64,000 bases of DNA, taken from Thiothrix fructosivorans (lineage in GTDB: Bacteria; Pseudomonadota; Gammaproteobacteria; Thiotrichales; Thiotrichaceae). The DNA lies in assembly GCF_017349355.1 (NCBI RefSeq), contig NZ_JAFMPM010000006.1:1736001-1800000 (forward strand). The letters are read 5' to 3'. Shown piece by piece: positions 20,226 through 53,035 of the stretch (positions are counted from its first letter, which is position 1; every line of letters begins with the position of its first letter). A model generated the notes under the pieces. The model was not told the origin of the DNA and made no database searches. It was given only the letters and a program-made list of their open reading frames with translations. Made by a program: the position numbers and the translations under genes.

Positions 20226-22052
20226 ATGTTAACCCCTAAACGTCTTCATCTATGTGCATTAGTGTTGGCTATTTCTGCTGCTGTGTCTGCTCAAACCGTA
20301 GCGGCGAACGTGCCCGATGCGCCACCCTCTACTAAAAATCCGGTTGCGTTGCCCCCACAAACACAGCCCGATACCGATCAGTTGATTATTCGTTTCCGTG
20401 ATAATGCAAGCCCTGTCGTTGTCGATAAAGCGTTGTCTCGTCTGCGTACTGAGAAAAGTGAAAAATTTGCTTACGCCAAAACCACGCCTGATAAAGCGGA
20501 TGTTTTTCGTTTCGAGAAGCGTAAAAAGAAAGCCGATTGGGACAAGTTATCCACTTGGCTGAAGCAGTTACCGGAAGTCGAATACGTCGAGCCGGACTAT
20601 ATTCTGAACCGTATGGCTGTGCCTGCGCCAGTCGTACCGAATGATCCTTATCTGAATTATCAATGGTCATTGTTGGATGCCATCAGTGGTATTCACGCTG
20701 ATCAAGCATGGGGTTACACCGCTGGTCGGGGTAGCGTCGTGGCTATCGTCGATACCGGTGTCTTGCCGCATGTGGATTTATTGCCGAATCTGTTAGCAGG
20801 TTACGACATGATTGCGGATACGGTGACAGGAAATGATGGCAACGGGCGCGACAGTGATGCGACGGATGCAGGTGATTACGTGCTGGCAGGCGAATGTGGC
20901 AGCACGACGACCATCAATAGCAGTTGGCATGGTACACACGTAGCAGGCACGATTGCGGCTGCTGGTAACAATGCCGAAGGTGTTGCAGGTGTCGCTTATG
21001 CCGCTAAGGCATTGCCGGTACGAGTGTTGGGCAAGTGCGGTGGCTATACCTCTGACATTGCTGCGGGTGTTATTTGGGCGGCAGGCGGCACGGTATCCGG
21101 TGCACCTGTGAACCCGAATCCGGCGCGGGTTATTAACCTGAGTTTGGGTGGCGCATCCGCCTGCGGTTCAACCATGCAGAATGCCATCAATACAGCGCGT
21201 GGCAAAAATGCCGTGGTCGTGGTGGCGGCAGGCAATAGCAATACCGATGCCAGCCAATTTTCACCCGCCAACTGTGCCGGTGTTGTGACGGTAGCTGCGA
21301 CCGGCAAAAATGGCGGACGGGCTTACTATTCCAACTACGGCAATGTCGTCGATTTAGCCGCGCCGGGTGGTTCGATGAATACCGGCGCAACAGACGGTAT
21401 CGTTTCCACCCTAAATACGGGTACGCAAACGGCGCTTGCCGACACTTACAAGTATTATCAAGGCACGAGCATGGCAACGCCCCACGTATCAGGTGTGGTG
21501 GCACTCATGCTATCAGCCAATCCCGCCCTGACACCGGATCAGGTGGAAAGTCTGCTGAAGTCGAGTGTGCGAACCTTCCCGCAACCTTGTGCCAGTTGTG
21601 GCACGGGTTTGTTGGATGCCGCTGCCGCCGTGCAAGCAGCCGTTAATTTTACCGCGCCCGTTGACCCTTACGCGGTGTTGCTGAGTGATTTGAAGAAAAA
21701 CCGCGATCTGTGGCGTGCACAAAACCTCTTGAATTACACCTATGTGTTGGAACAGAAAACCGGCACGAGTGCGGCATTGCGTTTAAAGCTGACCGTTAAA
21801 GCCGGTGTATTGACGGCAGGCATGAATCTGGCAACCAATAAAGCCTTGTCTTCCAGAGACTTGAAAGCCAAAGGTAAAACGGTTGAGCAGTTGTTTACTC
21901 AAGTCGAAACCGCGATTAGTAGCAGGTACACCACGGTCAAAACGACGTATGACACTGCATTCGGCTACCCACTGGATAGTTTCTTGGATAAAAGCACCAG
22001 CGTGACTGGTGATGATGTGAGCTTGAAAGCCTCCAGTCTCACCAAGCTATAA
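20226..22052 (+). CDS. Secreted S8 family serine protease (subtilisin-like)
   Basis: 608-aa exported protease. A signal peptide (residues 1-27) is followed by an I9-type propeptide (about 50-130, DQLIIRFRDN ... VEYVEPDYI), which usually acts as folding chaperone and inhibitor. The catalytic triad is complete: D176 (VAIVDTGV), H235 (SSWHGTHVAGTIAA) and S415 (YQGTSMATPHVSG), with the oxyanion asparagine N337 (AAGNSN). Disulfide-capable cysteines are scattered through the catalytic domain. The C-terminal 130 residues are not a family domain I recognise (a possible pre-peptidase or secretion tail). The next gene, 32 bp downstream, encodes a secreted glycosidase, so the two may be co-transcribed exoenzymes. 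Confidence 0.93.
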   Translation: MLTPKRLHLCALVLAISAAVSAQTVAANVPDAPPSTKNPVALPPQTQPDTDQLIIRFRDNASPVVVDKALSRLRTEKSEKFAYAKTTPDKADVFRFEKRKKKADWDKLSTWLKQLPEVEYVEPDYILNRMAVPAPVVPNDPYLNYQWSLLDAISGIHADQAWGYTAGRGSVVAIVDTGVLPHVDLLPNLLAGYDMIADTVTGNDGNGRDSDATDAGDYVLAGECGSTTTINSSWHGTHVAGTIAAAGNNAEGVAGVAYAAKALPVRVLGKCGGYTSDIAAGVIWAAGGTVSGAPVNPNPARVINLSLGGASACGSTMQNAINTARGKNAVVVVAAGNSNTDASQFSPANCAGVVTVAATGKNGGRAYYSNYGNVVDLAAPGGSMNTGATDGIVSTLNTGTQTALADTYKYYQGTSMATPHVSGVVALMLSANPALTPDQVESLLKSSVRTFPQPCASCGTGLLDAAAAVQAAVNFTAPVDPYAVLLSDLKKNRDLWRAQNLLNYTYVLEQKTGTSAALRLKLTVKAGVLTAGMNLATNKALSSRDLKAKGKTVEQLFTQVETAISSRYTTVKTTYDTAFGYPLDSFLDKSTSVTGDDVSLKASSLTKL

Positions 22053-48702: not shown

Positions 48703-50880
48703 TTACCAGTAAGTACCCTTACCACCCTGCTTCTGCGTTACCACTTGCGCCAGCGTGCTAACCACACCCGCTTTACGCATCAAATCCGCCAATTCGCGTT
48801 GCTGACTGGCATCCTGACACGCTGCGGTGGCTTTGGCATACAGACTTTCGGCTTTGCTGCCGTTGCCCCATTTTTGCGCCAGTTCTGCCATATACGCAAA
48901 GTGGAAATGATTTTGTGCTTTGGCTTCGCCTTTGTCCAAAATCATTTGGGCCTGAGCATCGTCATCCAAATGCTCTTTGACGGCTTTGGCGAGTTTGTTG
49001 TACTCGAAAGTGCTGGCGTTGCCGGAATCCAGCTTTGCCAGTTGCGCGGCATAGAATTGCTGCGTCCACGCTTTGCCAAACTCGGTGTCGCTGAGTTGCT
49101 TGCTGACGGTTTCGCCGAGGTTGCGCACTTGGGCAAAGGTATTGCTGTTGTTCGCGGCTAAGTCGAGCAAACGCGCTAACCAAGCCTTGTCTTTCACTAG
49201 ATTGCCGACAGAGACGATCAACGGTTGGTAAGCGGCGAAGCTGAATGTACCTGCTGCCTGCATCTTTTCTTCTGCTGTCGTCAGCAATTGGCTGGCATAA
49301 GAGGTATCTTCCAATTCTTCCACTACCGCACCTGCCAGTGCAATGAACTGGTTGGGGCGTGTCAACGTTTTTTCCTGATTTTGGAATTCGGTGTAACGCG
49401 CTTGGCTGGCTTCGCGTTTGGTAAGTTTCGCACCGATACGCTCGTTGCGCTCGGCATCACCTGCCAGCAATTGCTTGGAAGCGTTCGCCAGTTTGCGCAT
49501 TTCATCGAGTGAGCTAACGTTGGCTTCAGCTTTGTCGAGCGCTTGCACGACTACGGTGGTGTCGCCCGGTGTCAATTTTTGGGCGCGTTGTGCCACGTCC
49601 AATACTTGCGCGTTGGTATCGGTCAGCTCCAGTGCTTTTTGCAGGGCAGTGCCAGCCAATGCTGCATCGGTTGGGTTTTTCGCCAGTGCTTCGAGGATGC
49701 TGGTCGCGTCGGTGTAAACTTTGCAAGCATCAACCGCTTTGGTGTAGAGCGCATTGGTTTTGGCAGGGTCTTGCAACGCAGTATTCACTTCACCTGCGAG
49801 TGATACCAATGCCGCTGCCGTGGTCGCTTTGGCTTCGGCAGCTGCGTAAATGCTGGCAACGCGGTCTTTATCGCCGAGGTTGTCGTTGACGGCTTTTGCC
49901 AACATGGCCAAATCTGTGGGCGTATTGAGTTTGCTGGCGAGTTTGTCGTAAGCCTTGCCTGCAATGGTTTTGTCATCCATGTTGGCAGCAACCGCGCTAG
50001 CCAGTTTTAGCAAGTCTTCCTTGCCGCTGAATTCGTTCAGGGCAACGCCGTACATATCTTTGGCAGTAGCTTGGTCGTTCAGCAAGCTGGCATAACCCGT
50101 TGCCAAATCAAGGTTTTCTTCGCCACTCATCGCGAAGTTTTTGCCTTGTTCCAGCAAGTCTTCGGCTTTGTCTTTGTCGCCGAGCAGGTTCATGAAACCA
50201 CCCGCGAGTACCACGAATTGCGCAGGGAACATGCAGTTACTTTCAGCGTCGGCAAGCGTTGCTGCGACTTCTTTATCATCGCCGAACAGGTCTTTCAAAC
50301 CTTTAGCAAAGGTGACGACATCGGCCGTTTCGCTGCTGGATGGTGCAGCTTTTTTAAAGACCATCAGCGCGGTAGTGGGGTTACCGCTGTTTTTAATGTC
50401 GGTGGCAAGTTTTTGGTAATCGGCAATACTTTTACAGTTTGCAGTGACTTTGCTGAACAGTTTGTTGGCGAGCGCGTTATCTTGCAGCGCGTCTTGTACG
50501 TAGCCTGCGTAAGACAGCAATTCGGTGGTATTGGTGGTTTCGCTGATGGCTTCTTCCAATAACGCACGACCTTTGTCGCGGTCGCCGAGGAATTTGGCAA
50601 TGCTGTAGCCGGTTTCAGCTTTTTCTTTGGCATCAAAGCACGCATTGGCAGCTTCGTCGTACAGGGCAGCGGCTTTGTCGTTATCACCTGCGGCAACATA
50701 GCCTTCCGCTACGCTGACGTAATGGGCAGGGAAAGAACAGTTGGATTCGCCTTTGGCTAGCAGCTCTTTGGCGTAATCCAGATCGGCTGGTTCGGCGGCT
50801 GCTTGTTTGGCAAGGGCTGCGTAAGAGGCTGCGTCGTTGCAGGCGGATGCTTGTGCGCTGAGTTCTTCCCGAGTGGCCAT
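48703..50880 (-). CDS. Large helical-repeat (TPR-like) protein, unknown function
   Basis: 725-aa soluble protein without signal peptide, almost entirely alpha-helical. It consists of roughly 18-20 degenerate repeats of about 35 residues with the shape ...LAxxxxxxLGDKDKAxxLYxxAxxxAxT..., for example LAMLAKAVNDNLGDKDRVAS then IYAAAEAKATT, and NLDLATGYASLLNDQATAKD. This fits a TPR/SEL1-like solenoid used for protein binding. ATG 50880 has a strong ribosome-binding site (GGAGG, 5 nt). It is divergent from the graspetide precursor gene with 209 bp between them, so the two may share regulation. Acidic composition; ends GGKGTYW. I do not recognise a named family. Confidence 0.75.
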   Translation of the reverse strand: MATREELSAQASACNDAASYAALAKQAAAEPADLDYAKELLAKGESNCSFPAHYVSVAEGYVAAGDNDKAAALYDEAANACFDAKEKAETGYSIAKFLGDRDKGRALLEEAISETTNTTELLSYAGYVQDALQDNALANKLFSKVTANCKSIADYQKLATDIKNSGNPTTALMVFKKAAPSSSETADVVTFAKGLKDLFGDDKEVAATLADAESNCMFPAQFVVLAGGFMNLLGDKDKAEDLLEQGKNFAMSGEENLDLATGYASLLNDQATAKDMYGVALNEFSGKEDLLKLASAVAANMDDKTIAGKAYDKLASKLNTPTDLAMLAKAVNDNLGDKDRVASIYAAAEAKATTAAALVSLAGEVNTALQDPAKTNALYTKAVDACKVYTDATSILEALAKNPTDAALAGTALQKALELTDTNAQVLDVAQRAQKLTPGDTTVVVQALDKAEANVSSLDEMRKLANASKQLLAGDAERNERIGAKLTKREASQARYTEFQNQEKTLTRPNQFIALAGAVVEELEDTSYASQLLTTAEEKMQAAGTFSFAAYQPLIVSVGNLVKDKAWLARLLDLAANNSNTFAQVRNLGETVSKQLSDTEFGKAWTQQFYAAQLAKLDSGNASTFEYNKLAKAVKEHLDDDAQAQMILDKGEAKAQNHFHFAYMAELAQKWGNGSKAESLYAKATAACQDASQQRELADLMRKAGVVSTLAQVVTQKQGGKGTYW

Positions 50881-51089: not shown

Positions 51090-52145
51090 ATGACAGGCAT
51101 AACACAAGGAAGTGGGTTTCGCGAAACCCAGACAAGTAGCCAGACAACATCTAGCAGTACAGCGTCGTCTGCGAGTACGGCTAGTACGACATTGCTCAAA
51201 AATGCCGTGGGCGGTATCCAAAATCAGTCTGGTCAATCATCGCTGGGTGGCAACAACACCGCATTGATTAATCTCATTCAACAATTAGTTGATCAAATCG
51301 GCAAGAATAAAGGCGGTTGTCAGCCACAACCGCAGCCGCTGACATTGAGCGCACAGCAGGATAAGGCGATTCGTGAGCGCTTCAATATTGGTGGTGCAAT
51401 GAGCTATCAAGTCTTGGACAGCAAAAAGGATGGCAAGCTCAGCGCAGGTGATACGCTAGTGATGTCCGGTGGCATTACGGGCGGCGAAATTTCGCGCCAA
51501 AAACTGACTGCCAAAGACGTGAAAGCGATTAACAGCGGCAGTACTTCCACCCCGCAACAGCAATTGGATGCTAATCGCCAGAAATGGGATTCACTGGGGA
51601 TCAGTGATTATTCATTTACTTTGCAGCGCAGTTGCTTCTGTACGCCAGATTCAACGCGTCCGATTACTATTCAAGTGCGTGGTGATAGCGTTACGTCGGC
51701 ACGTTATGCCGATACTGGCGAGCTGATTCCTGATGATCGCCAAACCAATAAACAGTCCATTTATAATATGAATGCTGATGGCGTGTTCAATTTGATTGAG
51801 CAGGGTATCAAAAGTGGTGCGGCGCAAGTCGATGCGAAATATGACGCGCAATACGGTTTGCCCACGTCTATTTACATTGACCAGAATCAGCAGATGGCGG
51901 ATGAGGAAATGGGTTACACGATCTCCAATTTCCAGCCTGAGCCGATGTTCACTACGATGATGATGGGTGAGGAAGATGGCGGTGGCCCGATTATTCAACC
52001 GCCGATTAAACCGCCCATTATGACTACGATGATGGTGGGTGAGGAAGACGGTGGGGTGCAACCATGCCCTGTTAAGCCGCCGATTGAGCCACCCATGATG
52101 ACCACGATGGCATTGGGTGAAGAAGACGGTTGTGCCGCGATATGA
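51090..52145 (+). CDS. Putative graspetide precursor with large leader and three TTxxxxEE cores
   Basis: 351-aa protein. Residues 1-50 are Ser/Thr-rich. An EF-hand-like loop DSKKDGKLSAGD occupies 110-121. Residues about 158-282 look like a DUF6174 domain (KWDSLGISDYSFTLQRSCFC). The C-terminus carries three spaced copies of TTxxxxEE: TTMMMGEE at 288-295, TTMMVGEE at 312-319 and TTMALGEE at 338-345, each followed by DG and joined by proline-rich linkers (QPPIKPPI, CPVKPPIEPP). This motif defines plesiocin-type (group 2) graspetides, in which an ATP-grasp enzyme links Thr hydroxyls to Glu carboxyls. The next gene, overlapping by 4 nt, is such an enzyme. Known precursors are usually far shorter. 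No signal peptide. Ribosome-binding site AGAGG. Confidence 0.8.
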   Translation: MTGITQGSGFRETQTSSQTTSSSTASSASTASTTLLKNAVGGIQNQSGQSSLGGNNTALINLIQQLVDQIGKNKGGCQPQPQPLTLSAQQDKAIRERFNIGGAMSYQVLDSKKDGKLSAGDTLVMSGGITGGEISRQKLTAKDVKAINSGSTSTPQQQLDANRQKWDSLGISDYSFTLQRSCFCTPDSTRPITIQVRGDSVTSARYADTGELIPDDRQTNKQSIYNMNADGVFNLIEQGIKSGAAQVDAKYDAQYGLPTSIYIDQNQQMADEEMGYTISNFQPEPMFTTMMMGEEDGGGPIIQPPIKPPIMTTMMVGEEDGGVQPCPVKPPIEPPMMTTMALGEEDGCAAI

Positions 52146-53035
52146 GTCAACTTCCCCGCTTGTTATTAGCTGGTGGCGATACTGACCCACAGTTAGTACG
52201 CCTCTTGAAACGAGCCGCATTACACGGTATTCCGGTGCATTGCTTGCTCACGGGGCAAGCGGGGTCGCCGCGTTTGCATTGGGACATCCGCCAGCATCGT
52301 TTGTTGGATGATGCGGAAGAAGTCGCCGTTTCTGCCGCTTTCATCCGCCAAGACGTGTTTGCTTACCTCAAAAGCAATAACGCTCAGGACAATGCGAGTG
52401 CGCGTGAATGGTTCGTTAGCGTATCCGGCTGGCTACTAAGCTCGCCGGATATTCATGTCTGCAATCGCCCGTTTCTGGCGTGCGGTGGTGTCAACAAGCC
52501 GTATGTATTACGCTTGGCGCTGGAGCTGGGCTTTAACGTTGTCGATACCTATATCAGCAACGACATTCCCGCGATGGATGCGTTGGCGCAGACCGGAGAG
52601 TGGATTGTGAAACCCGTGACTGGGGGGGCGTATTGCACGCCGTTAACACCGCATGAAGGGCGTGGCAATAACATTCTGGCTTTCCCACAAACGGTGCAAC
52701 AACGCTTGGAGCAACCGGAATTGCGTGTGTTCCGTGTCGGCGCGGCATGGTTTGGGTTTCAAGTGTTGTCTGATGTGTTGGATTATCGCACGTCATCAGC
52801 GACGCGTATGAAAGTGGTCGATGTACCGTCTGATTTGGTGGAAAAGCTCACGCTATTGTCGGATCGCCTTGGGCTGGATTTTGCGGCGGCTGATTTCAAG
52901 ACCGATGTACACAGCGGTGAATTACAATTTCTAGAAATCAATACAAATCCGATGTTTGCAGGATTTGATCAAATGGCGGCTGGCGCATTAAGTGATGCAA
53001 TATTGCGCCATTTAGGTGTATTAACTGCCGTGTGA
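52142..53035 (+). CDS. RimK/MvdC-like ATP-grasp ligase (putative graspetide synthetase)
   Basis: 297-aa cytoplasmic enzyme. The N-terminal third (RLLLAGGDTDPQLVRLLKRA) is a pre-ATP-grasp fold. The ATP-grasp core has the ATP-binding lysine in GEWIVKPVTGGAY (about 150), the strand RVFRVGAAWFGFQVLSD, and the metal-binding end ADFKTDVHSGELQFLEINTN then PMF, with the Asp...Glu-x-Asn triad typical of RimK and microviridin ligases. Such enzymes activate carboxylates as acyl-phosphates. Start ATG 52142 overlaps the precursor stop (ATGA), which indicates coupled translation; an in-frame start at 52130 would lie inside the precursor. Predicted substrate: the three TTxxxxEE cores encoded just upstream. 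Confidence 0.85.
   Translation: MSQLPRLLLAGGDTDPQLVRLLKRAALHGIPVHCLLTGQAGSPRLHWDIRQHRLLDDAEEVAVSAAFIRQDVFAYLKSNNAQDNASAREWFVSVSGWLLSSPDIHVCNRPFLACGGVNKPYVLRLALELGFNVVDTYISNDIPAMDALAQTGEWIVKPVTGGAYCTPLTPHEGRGNNILAFPQTVQQRLEQPELRVFRVGAAWFGFQVLSDVLDYRTSSATRMKVVDVPSDLVEKLTLLSDRLGLDFAAADFKTDVHSGELQFLEINTNPMFAGFDQMAAGALSDAILRHLGVLTAV

Follow-up and report, generated by a model that had tools for sequence, protein, structure and literature searches.

We found that two overlapping genes of Thiothrix fructosivorans encode a protein of 351 residues that ends in three TTxxxxEE cores and an ATP-grasp ligase that resembles PsnB. We propose that the pair is a minimal graspetide system of the plesiocin type, in which ester hairpins stay on a folded carrier and would act as a multi-headed inhibitor of serine proteases. 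Judging from the sequences, we give this reading a probability of about 0.65. The pair lies in a stretch of 64,000 nucleotides that was analysed as a whole (the window), in a genome of 4.36 Mb and 8 contigs. Its parts, in window positions, are as follows.

51090..52145, + strand: precursor or carrier protein, 351 aa, with three C-terminal cores (open reading frame and homologues)
51090..51110, + strand: N-terminal segment MTGITQG with the I-x-Q motif, a candidate ligase-recognition element (motif common to type A precursors with differing domain sets)
51255..51305, + strand: predicted helix, residues 56-72, including NLIQQLVDQI (model of low confidence, pLDDT block means 46-58)
51417..51452, + strand: EF-hand-like loop DSKKDGKLSAGD, residues 110-121 (read from the sequence; without a Pfam EF-hand match)
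51561..51938, + strand: DUF6174 domain (PF19671), residues 158-283 (Pfam, E 7e-42)
51951..51974, + strand: core 1, TTMMMGEE, then DGG; begins 5 residues past the closing NFQ of DUF6174 (motif scan)
52023..52046, + strand: core 2, TTMMVGEE, then DGG (motif scan)
52101..52124, + strand: core 3, TTMALGEE, then DGC (motif scan)
52142..53035, + strand: ATP-grasp ligase, 297 aa, PsnB-like (open reading frame, profile and fold)

The first-pass annotation had described three Thr/Glu motifs, each with Asp-Gly behind it, and an ATGA overlap of the two genes. Both descriptions were accurate, as all three motifs are at the codons listed above with D-G after each, and the ligase ATG at 52142 overlaps the TGA stop of the precursor. 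Scans for promoters (2 found, shuffle mean 3.0) and terminators (4 found versus 2.3 in shuffles, sd 1.5) gave no clear excess.

TTxxxxEE is the core motif that defines the plesiocin group (group 2) of graspetides. All three window cores have this pattern, which would place them in that group. We rejected a chance origin of the motifs because the triple motif was absent from 100,000 shuffles of the window precursor; one or more motifs appeared in 50 of them. Counting homologues, there are 53 cores in 19 precursors (15 of type A, the ligase type of the window, and 4 of the distant type B), with one to six cores each and 36 in type A. Thr2, Glu7 and Glu8 are present in 53/53 cores, position 1 holds Thr in 51 cores and Ser in the other 2, Gly6 is found in 52/53 and Asp9 in 48/53, a constancy that is partly built in because the regular expression for the cores demanded most of the conserved letters. 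A relaxed scan yielded one clear extra near-core, LTKALGEEG in G077, which is without the first Thr; the remaining rows were frame-shifted readings of known cores, apart from TLV(I/M)SGGITGG, which lies outside the tail. Position 3 is the most variable (L, M, Q, K, Y, H, F or R), most cores are followed by GG, and the linkers between cores vary in length and sequence. The position 1 Thr is encoded by ACC (22), ACG (17), ACT (7) and ACA (5), and the constant Thr and Glu codons show synonymous changes. Thus, selection seems to maintain these residues, and recent copying alone does not seem to explain them.

The first-pass annotation had suggested that homologues of a graspetide precursor should keep Thr and Glu while their linkers vary, and that precursors with the N-terminal domain and an adjacent ligase, but no Thr/Glu pairs, would speak against this reading. 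The former pattern holds across the 53 cores of the 19 precursors. We looked for the latter case and saw none; the Thr/Ser-Thr and Glu-Glu pairs are kept in 14/14 DUF6174 precursors that adjoin a type A ligase. The Cys residues noticed earlier near cores 2 and 3 are present but not conserved, as Cys occupies position 11 in 3/53 cores. Three precursors (G003, G006 and G010; L034, L030 and L032) carry a single altered core with GEEG in place of GEED, and this may be decay in those genomes. In G006 and G010 the altered core has one Cys in its loop and another just after it, which suggests either a disulfide variant or decay.

The second gene had been described as an ATP-grasp enzyme, and we found that PsnB is the nearest relative of this 297-aa ligase by profile and by predicted fold. 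A profile built from 17 relatives matched PsnB (7drm) best among PDB entries, at 6.2e-44, followed by 9bou, AMdnB, 5ig8, CdnC, 5ig9 and then RimK at 7.5e-5. When the predicted structure (pLDDT 86, pTM 0.86) was compared with known folds, ranks 1-11 were PsnB chains and the first RimK-type enzyme came at rank 40. The best fold alignment shows 21% identity to PsnB, which is the nearest solved relative. The KPxxGG, D-x-R and D...E-x-N stretches, which we take to be the nucleotide, catalytic and metal residues of ATP-grasp ligases, align with and match those of PsnB. A Pfam search at E 1 or better gave nothing for the ligase. The NCBIfam graspetide ligase models TIGR04187, MvdC and MvdD match it under their cut-offs, TIGR04187 being the best (2.8e-20, 72.8 bits versus a cut-off of 350). 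Its relatives in Thiothrix lacustris DSM 21227 and T. caldifontis DSM 21228 are 82% and 80% identical. These profile and model comparisons indicate an enzyme of the graspetide synthetase type, nearest to PsnB, with other graspetide ligases next and well above RimK. Together, the PsnB-like ligase, the cores in 19 precursors and the synonymous changes at their Thr and Glu codons strongly support the graspetide reading that was first put forward from the window.

Related ligases occur in 20/63 genomes of an order-level set. They fall into two types split by a fully supported branch of the ligase tree, for which the tree program warned of long branches. Type A was found in 15 genomes (13/16 in the genus, plus G034 and G066 in another genus) and type B in five (G008, G019, G030 with two loci, G077 and G079). 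A precursor with cores adjoins the type A ligase in 15/15 genomes. Taking both types together, TTxxxGEE-type cores are present in a neighbour at 19/21 ligase loci. The exceptions are both of type B: the neighbour at G030:C3 has a different repeat, TLATFE..., and no such core was seen in the neighbours of the G079 ligase. One 110-aa precursor of G030, by a type B ligase (L038 10665-10997, - strand), has two repeats around TLATFE(S/A)P. In these counts, L021 and L022, which match the contigs of G011 and G012 in length, were not entered a second time. G005 was kept outside all counts: its carrier (L087) gives way, just before the cores, to unrelated sequence dotted with N, through either true loss or an assembly fault, and the genome yielded no ligase. 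More widely, a class sample of 369 genomes gave 5 ligase matches at E 1e-25 or better, two of them already known. The three new genomes were scanned for cores only, and one (G197) has a 122-aa frame with one TTMALGEE. A core profile run against 398 phylum genomes matched our own genome and, weakly, one 889-aa frame (E 0.004). A search of 72,556 plasmid records with the precursor came back empty at E 1e-3 and lends no support to spread by plasmids.

The first-pass annotation considered the first 285 or so residues of the precursor to be a giant leader that contains an EF-hand-like loop and a DUF6174-like domain. The domain is a firm Pfam match (residues 158-283, 143 bits versus a cut-off of 23.8, E 7e-42). 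The loop is recognisable in the sequence at residues 110-121, although Pfam gave no EF-hand match at E 1 or better. The idea of one dedicated giant leader was rejected, because the domains are dispensable and the same carrier exists without cores. Beside type A ligases, nine precursors combine the EF-hand-like part with DUF6174 (window, G011, G015, G012, G009, G004, G001, G013 and G006), two have RTX repeats as well (G034 and G066), two have RTX and DUF6174 (G003 and G010), G014 has DUF6174 alone, and the 151-aa precursor of G002 has no such domain. DUF6174 is therefore present in 14/15 type A precursors, by Pfam in all 14. Pfam identifies the RTX repeats firmly in G034, G010 and G003. In G066 they were seen by eye, ahead of the listed start, in a frame that continues past the contig end. 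As the ligase tree groups G002 with G003 and G010 (96/92), domains appear to have been lost or exchanged within type A.

Carriers without cores were found in four genomes: G008 (L085), G017 (L108), G019 (L115) and G224 (L106). Their best local identity to precursors with cores is 37-43% over 199-435 residues. The G224 protein (L106 598-2178), from another family of the class, has 526 aa in the order helix, RTX (by eye), EF-hand-like part and DUF6174, and an unrelated C-terminal extension stands where the cores would be. A type A ligase was found in none of these four genomes. G008 and G019 have type B only, the order-level search found no ligase in G017, and G224 was not among the five ligase matches of a class sample of the same size. 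The folded part is thus better read as a modular carrier made of a short N-terminal motif, a helix, optional RTX repeats, an EF-hand-like loop and DUF6174.

The DUF6174 domain also occurs in two other kinds of protein in the genus. Lipoproteins share the domain and have a signal peptide and no cores (the one in L039 has an EF-hand-like part), and subtilases combine it with a protease domain and likewise lack cores. Within DUF6174, a C-F-C motif (window 51633-51641) is kept in the lipoproteins and most carriers, and is replaced in G003, G010, L085, L108 and the subtilases that were read. The model of the window precursor has a pLDDT of 65.5 and a pTM of 0.41, with most of the tail below 50 and block means of 66-91 in DUF6174. 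The top 30 rows of a second look with the DUF6174 model were mostly LolA/LolB, LprF/LprG/LppX and RseB/MucB, with 2yzy and 4z48 among the others. These matches are weak (Z of 7.2 or less, best Foldseek E 0.004), and the resemblance of the predicted fold to LolA/LolB/LprG/RseB is a hint only. Neither the whole precursor nor a type B precursor had a meaningful match in the PDB.

Which part of the carrier might recruit the ligase? M-x-x-I-x-Q opens 11/15 type A precursors and appears one residue later in G003 and G010. The start of G034 differs (MTQIQ), and that of G066 lies beyond the contig end and was left outside this judgement. In G012, G009, G004, G001, G006 and G003 longer frames are open and the inner ATG that aligns with MTGITQ was chosen as the start, as was an inner ATG for the type B protein of G008; these choices affect how often the N-terminal motif is counted. 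None of the four carriers without cores has I-x-Q. A leucine-rich helix was seen by eye in long, short and core-less proteins, and was not evident in G003 and G010. A helix of this kind in core-less proteins need not be a leader. Because I-x-Q goes with cores and the helix is also present where there are none, we infer that the extreme N-terminus is the better candidate for the recognition element, with the helix second. The four type B precursors with cores (138-208 aa) all open with GIF-x-Y-x-(V/I)-P, and Pfam gave no match in any of them.

Based on these findings, we propose the following model. The precursor and the ligase, encoded by overlapping genes, are probably translated together. 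The ligase would be recruited by the N-terminal end of the precursor, through the I-x-Q motif or the helix that follows, and would work on cores that begin 287 residues further down the chain. There it would use ATP to activate Glu side chains in each TTxxxGEE unit and join them to the two Thr hydroxyls, making two side-chain esters per core. The window protein would thus carry six esters, a change of about -108 Da. The DUF6174 carrier would keep the ester hairpins, which would form a multi-headed tail that inhibits serine proteases. In its fullest form, this model describes a RiPP enzyme turned into a modifier of protein tails, with ester hairpins permanent on a modular carrier and a ligase that acts about 290 residues off; we hold the chances of this fullest form to be evenly balanced.

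The alternative that survives best is an ordinary graspetide with an overgrown leader. After esterification, a protease and a transporter encoded elsewhere would release and export the tail, and the folded domains would be baggage. We think this unlikely but worth serious attention. The domain-free G002 precursor beside a type A ligase and the short type B precursors agree with it, but 14/15 type A precursors have DUF6174. The GG that follows most cores also agrees with it. However, the first core begins 5 residues past the closing NF(Q/R) of DUF6174 in 10/14 precursors, 7 past it in three and 19 in one, and so short a spacer leaves little room for a processing site. A C39 peptidase was not found in our own genome; it is present in 5/16 genus genomes and was not found in 11/16. 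A PrtD-type type I exporter, which could serve such a pathway, is above cut-off in our own genome, away from the pair, but this is true of only 9/16 genus genomes, and the exporter is not above cut-off in six genomes that have a type A pair.

The gene neighbourhood bears on the same question. The first-pass annotation had remarked that no dedicated protease or exporter lies next to the pair. We agree that the loci have no exporter or protease in common (mostly judged by eye), but in the window PqiA, PqiA, MlaD and an ABC auxiliary lipoprotein follow directly downstream. The same transport genes follow the pair in G009, G001 and G006, which would suit an exported product, but reading the other loci turned up no Pqi genes. 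Other transporter genes include an ABC transporter near the pair in G066 and FtsX or ABC genes some kb away in G002 and G014. Beyond the pair, no gene is common to all the neighbourhoods examined. The divergent neighbour in the window (48703-50880, - strand) encodes a protein of 725 aa that is TPR-like by eye and has no Pfam match; its homologues adjoin the pair in the other eight loci with EF-hand-like and DUF6174 parts (nine of nine with the window). On a crude measure, the strongest hydropathy over 12 residues within the first 45, the window protein scores 0.64 and the 19 precursors range from -0.22 to 1.68, and two DUF6174 lipoproteins of our own genome score 2.21 and 1.99. Weighing these sequence data, we estimate that a product that stays attached, which the first-pass annotation had raised as a possibility, fits better than a released one by about two to one.

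In a second alternative, the TTxxxGEEDGG units escape modification and serve as structural repeats or bind calcium, and the ligase is a bystander. The cores are acidic, and the carriers bear EF-hand-like loops and in some cases RTX calcium-binding repeats. Yet metal binding leaves the Thr pair unexplained, the pair of genes stays together across different gene neighbourhoods, and each of the four core-less carriers belongs to a genome where the searches detected no type A ligase. We consider this reading very improbable. Least probable of all is a RimK-like activity, in which the enzyme would append amino acids to the acidic tail or to the C-terminus and make no esters: RimK-type enzymes share the fold and the tail is Glu-rich, but the profile match to PsnB is far above that to RimK, and it is the paired Thr that are conserved and not the C-termini.

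What might an attached hairpin tail do? According to PMC8939145, all graspetides characterised by 2022 were protease inhibitors. PMC13097080 states that the potency of plesiocin grows with the number of units; it also states that rosaritide and corallotide had no activity in growth assays, which speaks against inhibition as a rule for all graspetides. By analogy, a multi-headed inhibitor tail would be the simplest reading for a plesiocin-like core. One lead to a target is the subtilase encoded at window 20226-22052 (+ strand; Peptidase_S8, 1.3e-57), which has a C-terminal DUF6174 and lies 29 kb from the graspetide carrier. In 12/16 genus genomes DUF6174 matches an open frame of about 600-670 residues; the frame was identified as a subtilase by reading in three (window, G008 and G002) and by BLAST in two (G012 and G004), and the other seven were assigned on length alone. 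In G012 and G004 the subtilase-DUF6174 gene is within about 5 kb of the precursor, with a homologue of the 725-aa protein between them. The co-occurrence with type A is not strict, as three type A genomes (G013, G014 and G015) are without the long frame, and we treat this target as a lead.

Compared with known systems, the ligase and the cores are of a known kind. Plesiocin (PsnA2/PsnB, PDB 7drm-7drp) likewise has tandem TTxxxxEE cores and a single PsnB-like ATP-grasp ligase. The plesiocin precursor is short; the Thiothrix cores sit on a carrier of about 285 residues with no linked peptidase-exporter. Plesiocin forms multivalent hairpins with two esters per unit, a feature that the Thiothrix product would share. 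Group 2 graspetides are reported, in the available portions of PMC13097080, to show high co-occurrence with an NHLM-type transporter. The same portions describe corallotide (CorA/CorB, group 15), whose precursor is also large (about 22 kDa with its tag); a helical domain is predicted for its N-terminal part (residues 1-86), and five repeated units that become modified follow. It differs in its Lys-Asp lactams and hydroxylation and in its oxygenase and beta-lactamase-like partner genes, and those portions do not mention DUF6174, RTX or EF-hand-like parts. In work on ThfB (PMC12291112), a graspetide synthetase likewise modifies constructs with an entire folded protein in them. That protein, a fluorescent one, had been engineered into a loop, whereas in Thiothrix a natural folded domain stands between the N-terminus and the cores. 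Long or large precursors are given for groups 34, 35 and 41 in the portions of the 2026 survey at hand (PMC13097080), and the Thiothrix proteins may already be in the tables behind it. We found no paper on DUF6174, or on Thiothrix with graspetide, among open-licence papers. Within the portions of these sources that were available, we did not find a description of a folded, interchangeable carrier between the N-terminus and the cores.

These results bear on how such systems are found. The initial candidate set of the 2022 survey comprised proteins of 150 residues or less, according to the available part of PMC8939145, and precursor-length caps in surveys can miss systems of this kind. The natural set of precursors with and without domains, with one to six cores and with core-less relatives makes the leader question directly testable. 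Ester-locked hairpin chemistry is known mainly from short protease-blocking peptides. Should the esters form and persist, graspetide chemistry would serve to decorate proteins as well as to make peptides, and Thiothrix would have a genetically encoded multi-headed inhibitor protein and not a released peptide. It would also have a natural ligase that acts on a far-off tail, which would be useful for equipping proteins with hairpin inhibitors.
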